From Isosphaera sp. (lineage in GTDB: Bacteria; Planctomycetota; Planctomycetia; Gemmatales; Gemmataceae), in NCBI GenBank assembly GCA_013822345.1, contig PNKH01000076.1:1-40440 (forward strand): 40,440 bases of DNA. Direction: 5' to 3'. Both the position numbers and the translations under genes were made by a program. Below the pieces are notes generated by a model. The model made no database searches, was not told where the DNA came from, and saw only the letters and a list, made by a program, of their open reading frames with translations. Below are positions 34,231-40,440 of the stretch, piece by piece; within the stretch, counting starts at the first letter, position 1; the number at the start of each line of letters is the position of its first letter.

Positions 34231-34322
34231 TCGGGGAGTGACGGGGGTCCGAGCCCGAGCGCCAGCGAGGGGCGCACCAGCCCCTCGCTGGCGCTCGGGC
34301 TCGGACCCCCGTCACTCCCCGA
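34231..34322. repeat. Inverted repeat, 43-base perfect arms, overlapping a stop codon
   Basis: Arms 34231-34273 and 34280-34322 are exact reverse complements with a 6-base spacer (GCACCA). The TGA stop of the esterase gene (34312-34314, minus strand) lies in the right arm, so its last residues (KAVGE) are partly encoded by the repeat. It ends 68 bases before the DUF3467 start. Confidence 0.94.
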
Positions 34323-36423
34323 CCGCCTTCACGGTCAGCCCGTCGCCCCCGGTCTGCCCCTGCAGCGCCAGCGGCCAGGCCCACGCCTCCCGGTCCGCCT
34401 CGCGGCGGACGTGCAGCGTCACCTTGCGCGGCGCCGCGAGAGCGACCGCCTGCGGGGCGTCCAGCACCCGGAGCACGTTCAGGAACGTCGGCCCGTCGCG
34501 GTGCGTCGGCGGGAGGTGCCACAGGTCGAGGGCGGCGACCGCCGGCTCGAACACCCCGGCGTAAAGGGCGATCCCGGCCGCCTCGCGCTCGCCGTGCAGC
34601 GTCAGCCGCGCCGCCTTCAGGTCCGGCTGCGCCGCGACCGCCGCCACCGCCCGCCGCACGTCCCACACCCGCTGCCCGTCGACCGTCTGCCCGAGCAGCG
34701 CGAACCGCCGGCGGGTCATCCGGTCCTCGAAGCTGCCGGGCTCCGCCCACCGCGTCACCCCGATGCCCCGCGGGGCGACCGCCGCGAACGCCACCTTCCC
34801 GCCGCGCATCACCGCCAGGTTCTGGGCGAACTGGGCGTCGTCGCGCTTCGCCTTCCGTTGCAGGGCGTCGGCGAAATCCGGCCCGAGCCCGCTGCACCAC
34901 CGGTCCCAGCCGGCGTCGTCGAGCACGCTCAGGATCACCTCCGCCGGCTTGTCGACCTTCTCCGCGGTCAGCACGAACAGCCGCAGCGGAACCGCCGCCT
35001 CGGAGGTGAAGTCGATCGCCCGGAGGCGGACGCCGTCGCGGGTCACGTCGGCCGCGACGGTCGGCCCGAGCGGCGGCGGGTCCGTCGGCCACCCGCCGAA
35101 CACCTTCTCCTTCAGTCCGGCGAGTAGCCCGGCCTTCTGGGCCGGCCACCCCTTCGCGTCCGGTGGGCCGAGCTTCGCCGGCGGCACGAACGTCTCGTGG
35201 ACCTTCTCGTTGATCCGCCCGGCCGGCAGCTCCGCGAGCACCTTCAGTTGTTCCGGCTTGAGCCGCGGCGGGAGGTCGTCCACGACCGCCGTCTTGGCGT
35301 CGTCCTTGAGCCACCGGTTCAGCCACCGGTTGATCCCGACGCGGAGTTCCGGCGTGTCCTTGTGCGGCCCCTTCGTCTCCAGGAGCTGGAACTTCTCCCC
35401 GGCCCCGTACAGGTCGTACACCGGGCGGACCTTGTCCGCCAGGCGGCGGTACCCGGCGACGGGGAAGATGTCGTCGGCGTCGGAGTTGCCGAGGAGCAGC
35501 GGCCGCGGGGCGATCAGGGCGGCGACGTCGGCGAAGTCCCAGCGGTAGGTGTTGACCGGGAACATGCAGTCGCAGTGGCCGGGCAGCACCCCGCGGGCGA
35601 ACCGCGGGACCGCCCCCTCGCACAGCTGCGCCCGCAGGTCGGCGATCCCCGCGACCGGGACGACCGCCTTCACCCGGTCGTCGGCGGCCGCCACCCACCA
35701 ACTCGTCGCCCCGCCGCCGCTGCGGCCGGTGAGCCCGATCCGGTCCGGGTCGACCTCGGGCCGGGACTGGAGGTAGTCGATCGCCCGGACGCCGTTCCAC
35801 AGCTCGACCCCGCCGGGGGTGTACCCGCGGGCCTGCCACCACCACAGGTTCTCGCGGTACGTGCCGTGGTGCAGCCCCTGGATCTCGCCGAGCTGGAGGG
35901 TGTCGAGGATGAGGCAGACGTACCCGTGGGCGGCGAGCCACGCCGGGTGGTACTGGTAGCTCACCTTGCTCCCGAACGAGACGCCGTTCTCGACCACGTT
36001 CCCGTGCCCGCAGACGTACAGCACCGCCGGGTGCCGCTTCCCGGCGGCCCCCTTCGGCAGGTAGAGGTTCGCGGTGACGTACAGCCCGGGCCGCGACTGG
36101 AAGTGGAGCCGCTCGACGGTGTACCCCTCGCCCTCGACGGTGCCGGTGACCGTCGCCCTCAGGTCGGTCTTCTCCGGCAGAGGCCAGAGGCCCATCATCT
36201 CGAGGAACTGCCGGCGGCGCTCGGGCCGCCCCTTCTCCCAGTCGGCCCTGGTGGGCAGCTTCGTGAGGCACCCGGCTTCGATGCGCCCGACCTGGTCACG
36301 GAGGTAGGCGTCGAGGGCCTTCTCGCCGGCGGCGTGGGGGTTGGCCGGCCGCGGGGCGGGGGCGGGCGGCTGGGCGAAGGTGGTTGAGAGCGTCAGGAGC
36401 AGGGCGGCGAAGGTGAGGCGCAC
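34312..36423 (-). CDS. Secreted alpha/beta-hydrolase, acetyl-xylan-esterase-like
   Basis: Predicted exported esterase, probably deacylating plant or algal polysaccharides. Seen: signal peptide (residues 1-17), then an alpha/beta-hydrolase fold with LYVTANLYLPKG, PAVLYVCGHG (oxyanion region, about 133-141), the nucleophile Ser235 in GRSGGGATSWW, a probable acid Asp in GNSDADDIFP and a His in ETKGPHKDTPEL. The catalytic domain ends near residue 380; the remaining 320 residues include a second, acetyl-esterase-like part (WAEPGSFEDRMTRRRFALLG, VAAVAAQPDLKAARLTLHG). This gives 703 aa, about twice a single-domain esterase, as in other planctomycete members. Start is GTG with GGAGGA about 8 bases upstream. 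Its stop codon is inside a 43-base-arm palindrome. Confidence 0.85.
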   Translation of the reverse strand: MRLTFAALLLTLSTTFAQPPAPAPRPANPHAAGEKALDAYLRDQVGRIEAGCLTKLPTRADWEKGRPERRRQFLEMMGLWPLPEKTDLRATVTGTVEGEGYTVERLHFQSRPGLYVTANLYLPKGAAGKRHPAVLYVCGHGNVVENGVSFGSKVSYQYHPAWLAAHGYVCLILDTLQLGEIQGLHHGTYRENLWWWQARGYTPGGVELWNGVRAIDYLQSRPEVDPDRIGLTGRSGGGATSWWVAAADDRVKAVVPVAGIADLRAQLCEGAVPRFARGVLPGHCDCMFPVNTYRWDFADVAALIAPRPLLLGNSDADDIFPVAGYRRLADKVRPVYDLYGAGEKFQLLETKGPHKDTPELRVGINRWLNRWLKDDAKTAVVDDLPPRLKPEQLKVLAELPAGRINEKVHETFVPPAKLGPPDAKGWPAQKAGLLAGLKEKVFGGWPTDPPPLGPTVAADVTRDGVRLRAIDFTSEAAVPLRLFVLTAEKVDKPAEVILSVLDDAGWDRWCSGLGPDFADALQRKAKRDDAQFAQNLAVMRGGKVAFAAVAPRGIGVTRWAEPGSFEDRMTRRRFALLGQTVDGQRVWDVRRAVAAVAAQPDLKAARLTLHGEREAAGIALYAGVFEPAVAALDLWHLPPTHRDGPTFLNVLRVLDAPQAVALAAPRKVTLHVRREADREAWAWPLALQGQTGGDGLTVKAVGE

Positions 36424-36841: not shown

Positions 36842-39800
36842 TTAGAACGCGTGCTGGAGGCCGAACCAGACCTGGAACGGGCTGGGGGCGTTCACCGTCT
36901 TGCCGACGTCGAGCCGGAGCGTCGCCCGCTCGATGAAGCTGAACACCGCCACGTCCACCCGCAGCCCCAGCCCGAGGGCGTGCGCCACCCCGTTCACGAC
37001 CCGCCCGTTCGCGTACACCCCGCCGACGTCGTAGAACCCGGCGAGCCACACGTTCCGCGCCCCGATCACCTTGTCCAGCGCGTTCCAACTCACGTTCCGC
37101 GCCAGCGGCACCCGCAACTCAACGTTCCCCACCCACAGCGCCGACCCCTGCCGCTCGGCCAGGTCGAACCCGCGGAACAGCGTCCCCCCGCCGAGCGCGA
37201 AGAACTGCCCGAAGTCCGGGTACGCCGCCTGCCCGACCACCCGCCCGGCCACCTTCCAGTCCTTCAGGAAGCACCAGCACTCCGGGGCCGGCAGCGGCCG
37301 CACCGCCGCCAGCTCCGCACGCCCCTGTGCCATCCCGCGATACCCGGCGAAGTCGACGACGCCGCCGCCCGCCACCAGGTCGACCCACACCCCGTGGTCC
37401 GGGTCCCAGTACGGCGTGTACAGGTTCAGCCGGTAGTGGTACCCGGCCATCGCCAGCCGGTCGTACCGCGCCCCGTGGCGGTCGAACGGGCTGCGGCCGC
37501 GGACGAACGGCAGGAAGTTGTCCTGGTAGGTGACGTATCCGTCCTGGTACATCACCGGCGGGAGGTACAGGCTCGACCCCGGCTTCAGGGTGTGCCGGAG
37601 GTAGGCCGACGCCCGCTCCGGCCCGCTCGCCCCGTCCAGCCCGCCGAACGGTCCGGCCACCCGCCGCTCGTAGTTCAGCCCGAACTCCAGGTGGTCGCCG
37701 AGCCACGTCGCGTCCGCCCCGACGACGATGTCCCGGAAGTCGCTGCGGATCGCGGTGTAGATGCCGGCGCGGAAGTGCTGCGGCTTGTTCACCCCGGCCC
37801 GCAGCCCGGCCATCGTCGACCGCGTGTACCACGGGTCCTGGTACGACGCCCCCCACACCCACGGCCCGGCGGTCAGGTTCCACCGGTCGTAGTCGCTGGT
37901 CAGGTCGGTCTCTTCCAGGCTGGTGTACAGCGGGACGACCCGGACCCGGGCGGTCGGCTTCCAGACGTTGTCGATCGGGTTCGCGTCGAGCAGGACGCGG
38001 TCCGGGTCGACCTCGATCTGCTCCGGCTCCGCCGCCGTGGTGAAGCTGACCGTCACCGTCCCGTTCGGGCCTGGTTCGAGGGCGTAGTCAAGTTCACCCC
38101 CGGCCCGCGCGGCCGCGGCGGGGTCGACCGGTAGCCGGAGCGTGTACCCCTTCTCGCCGGCGAACCGGACGCCGAGCGTCGTCGGCTCGGTGTACTCGCC
38201 GGACTGCCGCAGGGTGACCGTGACCCGCCTTCCGCCGTCCGGCGGCGCGGCGCGGCCGGCGGCCCGGGTCACCGCCGCGACCGCCACGTCCTCCACCTTC
38301 CAGTCGGTGACGCCCTTGCCGAAGATCCACCGGTCGAAGAACTCGCCCCAGTCCCGGCCGGTGTACGCCTCCAGCTCGCGCCGGTAGTCGGCGATCTGCA
38401 GCACCCGCCAGCCGTACTTCGTCGCGACGGTCCGGGTGAAGTCGAGGAAGGCCGCCTCGCCGAGGCGGTTCTCGATCATCCCCAGCGCCTTCGACCCGCG
38501 GTCGTACGCCCCGGTGAACAGGTGGAACAGGTGCCCGTACCGCGGCAGGTCCTGGGCGGCCGGCATCATGTCGCCGTTGCGGACCGCGTACTGCATCCCG
38601 CCCCAGTGGTAATTCTCCCGGTGGATGTTCGGCAGCCAGTCCAACCCCTTCGGCCAGAGCATGAACGGGTTGTTCTTCCCGTGCTTGGTGTCGAGCAGCC
38701 GGTGGGTGAAGTACGCCGCCGACGCCTCGTCCATGAACGGCTCGGTGTACCCGTTGGTGCCGACCAGGTTGTACCACCACTGGTGGCAGGTCTCGTGCGA
38801 GACGAGGTACTCGACGTACCCGCGGGCCAGCTTCGGCGAGTCGAAGACGCGCTCGTCGATCATGACCAGGCCGGCGCACTCGTTGCCGTTCCACCCGAAG
38901 AAGGACTCGACGATGGTGAACGACGGGTACGGGAACGGGCCGAACCACGCGGAGTAGACCGGGAGCGCCTCGCCGACGATCCGCAGCATCTCCTTCGCGT
39001 ACCACTCGTGCTCCGGGAACGCGACGCACCGCAGGGCGACCGTCTGGCCGCCCGGCAACTTCGTCTCGGCGGTGTACTCGCGGTACCGCGGCGAGCAGAG
39101 CACGGCGAAGTCCCGGCCGACGAACGGCTCGGTGTCGACCCGCTTCCGCCCGTCGGGCAGCCGGGTCTCGGACTTGAACGCCGCCGGGCAGACGAGCGTC
39201 TGGCCCTCGGGCAGGGTGATCGACGCCCGGTAGACGCCGGCCTCGTTGAAGAACGGCTGGTGCCACGGGACGAACGGCATCGGCCGCCACCCGGTGTCGT
39301 CGCGGAACGCCAGCACCGGGAACGAGTTCGTCAGGAACGTGACATCGTTCCAGTGGCCGAGCCGCCCCTGCTTGTTCGGCAGGTGGAAGTCGCAGACGAG
39401 TTCCACCGAGACGGACTCGCCGGGGGCGAGCGGCCGCGGCAGCGGGAACCGCAGGGCGGTCGGGTTGTGCTCGTCGTACTCGTAGCCGAGGAAGTCGTCG
39501 CACGGCTTCCCGGCGAGCGCCAGGAGCCGGGCCTCCTTGACGACGCCGGCCCGGCCGCCGCGGTCGATGCCGAGGTGCGGCCGCAGCCGGAGCATCTCGA
39601 GCGTCTTGGCGAGGTGGAGGTAGTCGCCGCGCGGGACGCGGTAGTTCGGGTAGAAGTTGAAGGCGAGGTGGTCGGCGGGGGTCGCGGTGTGGTTCGCCCA
39701 GGTGACCCGCTGGCGGAGCCGGGCGGTGTGGCCGGCGGTGTCGATCGTGAGGTCCAGGTCGTAGCGCGGCAGGTGGGCCGGAACGTCGGCCGCGGCCGCC

Positions 39801-39883
39801 GGGGCGGGCGGGCAGAACGCGACGGCGAAGGCCCACCCGAGCAGGGCACGGGAGGGGCGGAACGGGCCCGGCACGCGGAGCAC
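36842..39883 (-). CDS. M1-type zinc metallopeptidase fused to an Omp85-like outer-membrane beta-barrel
   Basis: Predicted protease whose own C-terminus embeds it in the outer membrane. Seen: signal peptide (residues 1-32), an M1 N-terminal beta domain (about 36-250), then the gluzincin site HETCHQWWYN with His363/Glu364/His367 and the third ligand Glu386 in PFMDEASAAYF (HExxH-x18-E, intact). The classical GAMEN exopeptidase motif reads NECAGLV, so aminopeptidase specificity is uncertain. From about residue 680 the sequence becomes alternating and aromatic. It ends with Omp85/BamA-type signatures: LGGGTLFRGFDLAERQGS, WVGNVELRVPLAR, YDVGGVYANG, LGLGLRVDVAV, and a terminal strand closing in Phe (FQVWFGLQHAF). 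Start is GTG; a second GTG three codons on is possible. Length 1013 aa. No close operon partner. Confidence 0.82.
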   Translation of the reverse strand: MLRVPGPFRPSRALLGWAFAVAFCPPAPAAAADVPAHLPRYDLDLTIDTAGHTARLRQRVTWANHTATPADHLAFNFYPNYRVPRGDYLHLAKTLEMLRLRPHLGIDRGGRAGVVKEARLLALAGKPCDDFLGYEYDEHNPTALRFPLPRPLAPGESVSVELVCDFHLPNKQGRLGHWNDVTFLTNSFPVLAFRDDTGWRPMPFVPWHQPFFNEAGVYRASITLPEGQTLVCPAAFKSETRLPDGRKRVDTEPFVGRDFAVLCSPRYREYTAETKLPGGQTVALRCVAFPEHEWYAKEMLRIVGEALPVYSAWFGPFPYPSFTIVESFFGWNGNECAGLVMIDERVFDSPKLARGYVEYLVSHETCHQWWYNLVGTNGYTEPFMDEASAAYFTHRLLDTKHGKNNPFMLWPKGLDWLPNIHRENYHWGGMQYAVRNGDMMPAAQDLPRYGHLFHLFTGAYDRGSKALGMIENRLGEAAFLDFTRTVATKYGWRVLQIADYRRELEAYTGRDWGEFFDRWIFGKGVTDWKVEDVAVAAVTRAAGRAAPPDGGRRVTVTLRQSGEYTEPTTLGVRFAGEKGYTLRLPVDPAAAARAGGELDYALEPGPNGTVTVSFTTAAEPEQIEVDPDRVLLDANPIDNVWKPTARVRVVPLYTSLEETDLTSDYDRWNLTAGPWVWGASYQDPWYTRSTMAGLRAGVNKPQHFRAGIYTAIRSDFRDIVVGADATWLGDHLEFGLNYERRVAGPFGGLDGASGPERASAYLRHTLKPGSSLYLPPVMYQDGYVTYQDNFLPFVRGRSPFDRHGARYDRLAMAGYHYRLNLYTPYWDPDHGVWVDLVAGGGVVDFAGYRGMAQGRAELAAVRPLPAPECWCFLKDWKVAGRVVGQAAYPDFGQFFALGGGTLFRGFDLAERQGSALWVGNVELRVPLARNVSWNALDKVIGARNVWLAGFYDVGGVYANGRVVNGVAHALGLGLRVDVAVFSFIERATLRLDVGKTVNAPSPFQVWFGLQHAF

Positions 39884-39934: not shown

Positions 39935-40165
39935 CTACTTCCGGTTCTTCTGGCGGTTCAGGGCCCGCTGACAGGGGAGCTGGCTGACCTCGCGGGTGCC
40001 TGGCGGGAGCTCGGCCTCGGTCGGGACGAGGACGGCGAGGCCCTGCTTGACCGGGAAGGTGACGCGGCAGCGGGAGCAGACGAGAAGTTGCTCGTCGCGG
40101 CTGAGGGTGGCCTCGCGCTGCGGGTCGACGGGACAGCGGAGCTGTGCGAGGAAGGCGTCGTCCAC
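39935..40165 (-). CDS. Trm112-family small zinc-ribbon-like protein
   Basis: Trm112/UPF0434-type protein; in other organisms Trm112 activates methyltransferases acting on tRNA, rRNA and release factors, while bacterial members are mostly uncharacterised. Seen: DDAFLAQLRCPVDPQREATL, EQLLVCSRCRVTFPVKQGLA and VLVPTEAELPP, the family's usual order. Of the four expected zinc cysteines, Cys11, Cys30 and Cys33 are present, but the second (usually CPxC) is Asp14, so metal binding may be altered. An extra 15-residue basic tail (CQRALNRQKNRK) is unusual. The GTG at 40165 is chosen because homologues start just there; the frame is open upstream through the 16S terminator, which cannot be coding. Length 76 aa. 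It lies right after the 16S rRNA terminator on the same strand. Confidence 0.75.
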   Translation of the reverse strand: MDDAFLAQLRCPVDPQREATLSRDEQLLVCSRCRVTFPVKQGLAVLVPTEAELPPGTREVSQLPCQRALNRQKNRK

Positions 40166-40192
40166 GGTGTTGTTTCCCGGGAGGTGCGAGGG

Positions 40193-40230
40193 AAACAAAA
40201 GACCCCCGACGGTTTGTGCCGCCGGGGGTC
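40193..40230 (-). terminator. Intrinsic terminator after 16S rRNA
   Basis: On the minus strand GACCCCCGGCGG pairs with CCGTCGGGGGTC (12 pairs with one G-U) around a CACAAA loop, followed at once by TTTTGTTT. This is a textbook rho-independent terminator about 104 bases after the 16S 3' end. It is the only palindrome in the window with a T-tract. Confidence 0.9.
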
Positions 40231-40333
40231 CTGTATCTCTGCAAGTTGGCAGCAGTTGGTAAGCCTTAGCGGGCATGGGGGACATGATGGACTCTCGTGT
40301 GATGAGCACGGAGTCTGGAGTCATCATCCTTAG

Positions 40334-40440
40334 AAAGGAGGTGATCCAACCGCAGGTTCCCCTACGGTTACCTTGTTACGACTTAGTCCCAATCAGGAAG
40401 TCCGGCGTCGGCATCGGTGAAGATGACTTCGGCCGTCCCT
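40334..40440 (-). rRNA. rrs: 16S ribosomal RNA, 3' end (partial)
   Basis: The plus strand reads AAAGGAGGTGATCCAACCGC at 40334-40353, the complement of the conserved 16S 3' end with the anti-Shine-Dalgarno. GGTTCCCCTACGGTTACCTT and GTTACGACTTAGTCCCAATC follow, the universal 1492R-type primer region. The rest of the gene runs off the window edge. Downstream there is no tRNA and no 23S before a terminator and a protein gene. Confidence 0.97.

Follow-up and report, generated by a model that had tools for sequence, protein, structure and literature searches.

How a metallopeptidase comes to be joined to an outer-membrane β-barrel, and what it would do there, is the question raised by one gene of Isosphaera sp. 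(Gemmatales, Gemmataceae; assembly GCA_013822345.1). We analyzed contig PNKH01000076.1 (C76 in our set) over its entire length of 40,440 nucleotides, here called the window; the genome comprises 7.47 Mb, and the contig end falls within a 16S rRNA gene. The gene at 36842-39883 on the reverse strand encodes an M1 peptidase followed by a barrel of the Omp85 type. Omp85 barrels are regarded as protein-insertion and secretion machines. The M1-Omp85 pairing is real, conserved, and apparently undescribed: among the listed matches in the open-licence literature (titles and abstract openings), no description of such a fusion was found. We consider it probable that the protein is an outer-membrane-anchored aminopeptidase that faces the periplasm, is organized like PlpD, and uses its barrel as an anchor.

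The reading frame begins with GTG, is uninterrupted over 1013 residues, and ends in Phe. Its third codon positions are 98% G+C, and the pattern over the first, second, and third positions is that of the coding frame of a G+C-rich genome; the coordinates, strand, and frame given in an earlier note on this DNA were correct. A genome-contig scan for close relatives revealed 45 loci, namely 38 relatives of the fused protein and 7 loci with the M1 part only (L040-L046). Partial or interrupted relatives (L015, L018, L027, L034, L035, L037, L038, and L039) were left out of alignment A1, which consists of the fusion protein and 30 full-length relatives and is the basis of all counts given below out of 31; alignment A2 further omits L021, which is nearly identical to L014. 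An A1 search of the order, Gemmatales, recovered a single match from position ≤167 to ≥913 of 981, across the zinc site and the barrel, in 71 of 83 genomes, so that an artifact of gene calling can be set aside. In Limnoglobus roseus (L010), the complete chromosome carries the fusion as one open frame. A frameshift or a mis-assembled fusion was ruled out by the identical chain layout in dozens of genomes. The parts of the protein are presented in Table 1.

Table 1. Features of the fusion gene, with positions in the window
Feature	Position	Strand	Basis
Whole gene: fusion of M1 peptidase and Omp85-type barrel, 1013 aa	36842..39883	-	ORF, translation, relatives
Probable type I signal peptide, residues about 1-33	39785..39883	-	By-eye reading; pLDDT <50 at residues 1-30
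M1 peptidase domains I-III, residues about 37-639, without domain IV	37967..39775	-	PF01433 at 305-519; VIA-align 1z1w, 3qnf_A
Zinc and catalytic residues H363, E364, H367 ... E386	38726..38797	-	Invariant, 31/31
NGNEC, residues 332-336, GAMEN counterpart, E335 invariant	38876..38890	-	phmmer and hmmsearch alignments; 31/31
Y460, counterpart of the M1 catalytic tyrosine	38504..38506	-	Aligned to Y-x-K-G tyrosine of M1 enzymes; 31/31
Omp85-type β-barrel, 16 predicted strands, residues 669-1010	36854..37879	-	Predicted models and structure searches
FRGF (903-906) in loop L6, counterpart of (V/I)RG(Y/F)	37166..37177	-	Model strands 11/12; R904 31/31, G905 27/31
FYDVG (950-954) in strand 13, counterpart of FxDxG	37022..37036	-	Model; F950, D952, G954 each 31/31
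C-terminal strand WFGLQHAF, resembling an outer-membrane sorting signal	36845..36868	-	F1013 and W1006, 31/31

The C-terminal part was modeled with AlphaFold2 both within the full-length chain and as a separately folded barrel region. In the full-length model (mean pLDDT 85.2, pTM 0.85), M1 domains I-III are followed by exactly 16 strands (669-677, 691-700, 704-713, 718-728, 732-743, 756-767, 778-788, 809-820, 830-844, 848-863, 877-888, 915-928, 940-958, 967-980, 985-996, and 1004-1010), a count that leaves out a 3-residue piece at 933-935. The barrel folded alone again had 16 strands (pLDDT 81.8, pTM 0.82) and matched TamA (8us2_A; Z 20.1, rmsd 3.8, 286 aligned), BamA (9cs2_A; Z 20.0, rmsd 3.8, 286 aligned), and SAM (7btw_A; Z 19.4, rmsd 3.7, 275 aligned). 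Among its best 50 structure matches, 49 are titled BamA/BAM, TamA, or SAM complex and one, 5ayw_A, is titled membrane complex only; Foldseek matches include FhaC and CdiB. The presence of an M1 peptidase and an Omp85-type barrel in one chain, as read earlier from the letters, is thus borne out by the model, with Z about 20 to TamA, BamA, and Sam50, and the contrary outcome, a C-terminus of soluble β-sandwich domains only, was rejected by the 16 strands in both models and by the Omp85-fold matches. At the sequence level, the barrel profile matched Fusobacterium BamA (9ccg, E 4.6e-6) and, weakly, TamA (E 0.078), with unrelated chains at E 0.69-0.89. The NCBIfam Omp85 model NF047779 matched residues 892-1013 (E 4.1e-7, far under its cut-off), and PF01103 was found at E ≤ 0.01 in 19 of the 31 members; it exceeded its cut-off in the relatives L053 and L054 (36.8 and 25.2 bits), both left out of the trees. 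Hydrophobic alternation summed over the 16 strands was 36.0 versus 19.6 ± 3.6, a value reached by 0 of 2000 shuffles, on a Kyte-Doolittle scale with Trp and Tyr raised to count as hydrophobic, an adjustment to be held against it. F1013 and W1006 are invariant, and the terminal strand is similar to a sorting signal for the outer membrane.

No POTRA profile matched the fusion protein at E ≤ 1, and the separate BamA of the same genome yielded four POTRA stretches. Residues 541-668 were modeled as strands, with just two helices of 4 residues each, and residues about 540-640 fit the β-sandwich domain III of M1 enzymes, indicating a POTRA-free stretch before the barrel. A patatin domain was likewise not found, PF01433 and PF01103 being the sole Pfam matches in the fusion protein at E ≤ 1. 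As modeled, the C-terminal part is a 16-stranded barrel of the Omp85 fold, and the predicted protein would belong to Omp85 by a definition based on the barrel fold and not by one that requires POTRA.

Two motifs are common to Omp85 proteins, (V/I)RG(Y/F), which sits at the L6 loop tip, and (F/G)xDxG, on strand 13. An Arg-Asp salt bridge ties them together; BamA and TamA are marked by FxDxG and FhaC by GxDxG (PMC4490367). In the fusion protein, F903-R904-G905-F906 falls in the loop 889-914 between model strands 11 and 12, and strand 13 bears F950-x-D952-x-G954; motif positions and strand numbers agree without hand input. R904 and each of F950, D952, and G954 are invariant, G905 is present in 27 of the 31 members, and the last L6 position is F in 18, Y in 9, and L in 4. 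The segments RGFDLAERQG (904-913), ELRVPL (922-927), and DVGGVY (952-957) and the terminal F1013, on which the barrel had first been recognized, are all present.

The FxDxG of the BamA/TamA type, rather than the GxDxG of the FhaC type, in all 31 sequences and the invariant glycines G971 and G973 of strand 14 (31/31) could be taken as signs of an active Omp85 machine that inserts or quality-controls outer-membrane proteins, with the M1 part replacing POTRA and trimming or degrading precursors; periplasmic quality control was considered for the enzyme-bearing 'Metallo' Omp85 proteins in the main text of Heinz and Lithgow (PMC4104836). We regard such a role as unlikely, given that the genome already holds a separate BamA (796 aa, with a full Omp85 domain and its four POTRA stretches, adjoining recA), that an exopeptidase requires a free N-terminus, and that PlpD has been proposed to serve lipid homeostasis without a lateral gate (PMC11116518).

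The N-terminal part belongs to the M1 peptidases. PF01433 (Peptidase_M1) matched residues 305-519 with 43.9 bits against a cut-off of 27.7, and it matched all 31 aligned members at E ≤ 0.01. In the AlphaFold2 model, the M1 part was aligned by VIA-align with 1z1w (Z 33.4, rmsd 3.3, 464 aligned) and, over model residues 37-645, with 3qnf_A (Z 31.1, rmsd 3.6, 481 aligned). The zinc site reported earlier (His363, His367, Glu386; HExxH-x18-E) is intact: H363-E364-x-x-H367, followed after 18 residues by E386, is invariant in 31/31, as are E335 and Y460. In a profile alignment with solved M1 enzymes, E335 corresponds to the GAMEN glutamate and Y460 to the Y-x-K-G tyrosine. We take these positions to be, respectively, the M1 glutamate that binds the free amine of the substrate and the M1 catalytic tyrosine.

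The GAMEN site itself reads N332-G-N-E335-C, so that the literal motif is absent and the Glu alone is retained, which speaks against a plain aminopeptidase; in addition, the fusion protein matched none of the Pfam models for the N-terminal domain of M1 enzymes at E ≤ 1. Both observations would suit an M1 domain that has become an endopeptidase, another hydrolase, or a binding domain, but the zinc ligands, the catalytic Glu, the Tyr, and the Glu at the GAMEN position are invariant in all 31 sequences, and we consider such a change of function very doubtful. Loss of catalysis, as it might be read from the altered motif, was dismissed on the same invariant residues. Moreover, the unfused planctomycete M1 protein P0002, which scores above the PF01433 cut-off, has GGMEY at this position, and the literal GAMEN was therefore not taken as defining M1 enzymes. 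The proposal in the earlier note that, given the altered site, the protein may not be a simple aminopeptidase is accordingly weak. Judged by its conserved residues, the M1 domain is most likely an aminopeptidase that removes N-terminal residues.

With respect to location, both chain ends of an even-stranded outer-membrane barrel are periplasmic. PlpD likewise has an enzyme on an Omp85 barrel, and its enzyme domain has been shown to be periplasmic (PMC11116518). This topology and this precedent favor a periplasmic enzyme under an outer-membrane anchor. Only part of the earlier proposal on location could be retained: the protein has its own Omp85-like barrel without POTRA and is probably self-anchored in the outer membrane, whereas for the two reasons just given there is less support for placing it at the surface or for export by way of the barrel. 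A single chain with a probable signal peptide, an enzyme as passenger, and a barrel at the C-terminus would befit autotransporter-like delivery, in which the peptidase reaches the cell surface either through its barrel or together with it. However, this route would require a folded M1 domain of roughly 600 residues to pass through a barrel of 16 strands, the Arg and Asp of the lid lock are invariant, and the equivalent claim for PlpD was tested and rejected (PMC11116518), which together make surface delivery highly improbable.

We infer that the protein would be exported to the periplasm and that its Omp85-type barrel would then be inserted into the outer membrane. The M1 peptidase would remain folded on the periplasmic side, tethered beneath the barrel, and, in the large periplasm of planctomycetes, would trim N-terminal residues of peptides or unfolded proteins. 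The barrel would be an anchor, shut by the L6 'lid lock', and would stand in for the helical cap that domain IV provides in other M1 enzymes. BamA and LptD were present in all planctomycete genomes published at the time (PMC3422733), which supports the existence of an outer membrane. In Tuwongella immobilis, BamA was found in detergent fractions, and in the passages of that study examined here the M1-barrel protein is not mentioned (PMC8567305). A different arrangement would be a peptidase-gated Omp85 pore, in which peptides or unfolded proteins pass through the barrel, or are caught at its periplasmic mouth, and are trimmed at once by M1. We judge it quite improbable; if true, it would be a take-up-and-digest (or insert-and-proofread) machine serving the macromolecule feeding of Gemmata-like bacteria.

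Several further observations weigh against the anchored aminopeptidase or its general occurrence. PF01103 matched residues 891-979 of the fusion protein with 17.8 bits, under its cut-off of 24, and gave no match at E ≤ 0.01 in 12 of the 31 members. Comparison of the barrel profile with the BamA of the same genome by hhalign returned a probability of 1.5% (E 0.033, 85 columns), so that the Omp85 link is not provable from sequence alone. Strand 13 had no hydrophobic alternation (0.01), and the first L6 position is F in 22, L in 6, and Y in 3 members and never V or I. No match was found in 3 of the 66 good-quality genomes of the family (≥90% complete, ≤5% contaminated), genome G067 matched in the M1 part only, and L034 and L035 carry interrupted copies.

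The two interrupted genes each consist of two open stretches, at 811-3909 in L035 (Gemmata sp. IIL30) and at 639-3850 in L034, and the fusion gene of genome G009, which coincides with L035, has one TAA; the interruptions may be sequencing errors or real decay. A recent copy of the BamA barrel of the same genome was not supported as the source of the fused barrel, in view of the low hhalign probability and of the barrel profile having no second site in the genome at E ≤ 1.

At E ≤ 0.001, 85 of the 95 family genomes matched A1, among them 63 of the 66 of good quality, as did 78 of the 83 genomes searched in the order, including 7/7 of its second family; the family and order tallies also count fragments and one or more matches confined to the M1 part (G067). 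The genome of Isosphaera sp. itself has one M1 protein by PF01433 and one barrel of the fusion type. We concluded that the fusion gene is usually single-copy and close to a core gene of Gemmatales. In a sample of 198 genomes of the class Planctomycetia, 74 matched at E ≤ 1e-20, 21 of these outside the order; some of the matches share their position with L028 and L031, titled Isosphaeraceae, and the fusion thus extends to Isosphaeraceae and other Planctomycetia. A phylum sample of 292 genomes, with two candidates scored per genome, yielded 194 with matches at E ≤ 0.001, and whole-profile matches only in G000, G328, and G351 among the matches listed. Whole-genome sampling was within this phylum plus two genomes outside, and independent M1-Omp85 fusions may occur in other phyla. 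Plasmid searches gave 16 matching records, none of which covers 80% of the query, and the best 12 of the 16 reach residues 38-639 at most, that is, the M1 part.

In trees of the M1 half and of the barrel half, the distances are correlated (r 0.81, reached by 0 of 999 permutations). The 31 fused proteins formed one clade (support 0.96) in an M1 tree with 11 unfused M1 proteins drawn from the same searches, a test of single origin among the sampled sequences only. At least one planctomycete M1 protein, L055, has a profile match at 7-620 corresponding to domains I-III and ends without a barrel. Five M1 proteins of other planctomycetes (L056, L057, L058, L059, and L060) carry about 410-500 residues ahead of the M1 part; in L056 and L058, PF01433 is the sole Pfam match at E ≤ 0.01. 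A contig filed as Bacteroidales (L011) bears a Gemmataceae-type gene with 57% identity, and G035, with the same gene place, groups within Gemmataceae; the L011 record is likely mislabelled.

A Trm112-like gene (PF03966) at 39935-40440 on the reverse strand separates the fusion gene from the end of the 16S rRNA gene. The longest ORF of this Trm112-like gene starts 6 bases past the Rfam 16S match, and the true start may be further in. A related Trm112-like ORF adjoins the fusion gene upstream in 13 of the 33 loci (the window among them) whose upstream sequence runs to 400 bases or more. Of 11 loci scanned with Rfam, 7 have a 16S gene on the upstream side; loci tied to this arrangement are L002, L007, L008, L012, L014, and L036. 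L011 has the Trm112-like ORF beside the 16S end but away from the fusion gene, suggesting that the rRNA-Trm112 link may be tighter than the link to the fusion gene. In eukaryotes, partners of Trm112 act as methylases of rRNA and tRNA. Gene neighbors yielded no hint of function; the S9/S15-like hydrolase gene on the downstream side (34312-36423) was absent from the neighbor clusters seen in at least four loci (25 largest at most).

The fusion protein can be compared with several known systems. PlpD/FplA, the patatin-like members of Omp85 for which the name type Vd secretion is sometimes used, likewise have an N-terminal enzyme and a C-terminal 16-strand Omp85 barrel (PMC11116518). Their enzyme is a patatin phospholipase instead of an M1 peptidase; PlpD, a homodimer, has a POTRA domain, whereas none was found in the fusion protein. 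PF00149, to which another enzyme-bearing subfamily is assigned, is presumably a phosphoesterase rather than a peptidase family. Heinz and Lithgow (2014; PMC4104836) described 10 Omp85 subfamilies, including patatin, PF00149, and barrel-only types. Their 'Metallo' and 'noNterm' subfamilies are also barrels without POTRA, and the 'Metallo' enzyme domain, termed a metalloprotease, is PF00149 and not M1 (PF01433); the main text of that paper has no word beginning 'peptidase', and M1 did not turn up in the passages and word counts examined (PMC4104836). Tricorn factor F3, ERAP1, and E. coli PepN share with the fusion protein the fold of domains I-III, the zinc site, and the tyrosine, and a two-domain Deinococcus M1 enzyme, known here from PDB titles, shares the fold of its two domains and the same site and tyrosine. 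In contrast, M1 aminopeptidases have GAMEN where the fusion protein has NGNEC, identity is 12-19% among the matches listed, and the larger M1 enzymes have a helical domain IV in whose stead the fusion protein has a membrane barrel. TamA, BamA, and Sam50 have the barrel fold, strand count, and lid-lock residues in common with it but differ in that POTRA was not found in the fusion protein and its L6 motif begins with F, L, or Y and not with V or I.

PlpD showed that the Omp85 scaffold can bear an enzyme, and the M1 fusion adds an unrelated catalytic domain without POTRA; since the fusion is near-core in one order, an enzyme on an Omp85 barrel can be argued to be a recurring design. Protein uptake was reportedly described by Lonhienne and colleagues in 2010, and how Gemmata and its kin break down the material in their periplasm has been in question since. 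Planctomycetes including Gemmata accumulate extracellular macromolecules such as dextran in a periplasm that can be enlarged, by mechanisms that are unclear (PMC5394234). This accumulation would provide a plausible job for a periplasmic M1 enzyme, and the M1-barrel fusion is a concrete, usually single-copy candidate for the breakdown of material in the enlarged periplasm of Gemmata and its kin.

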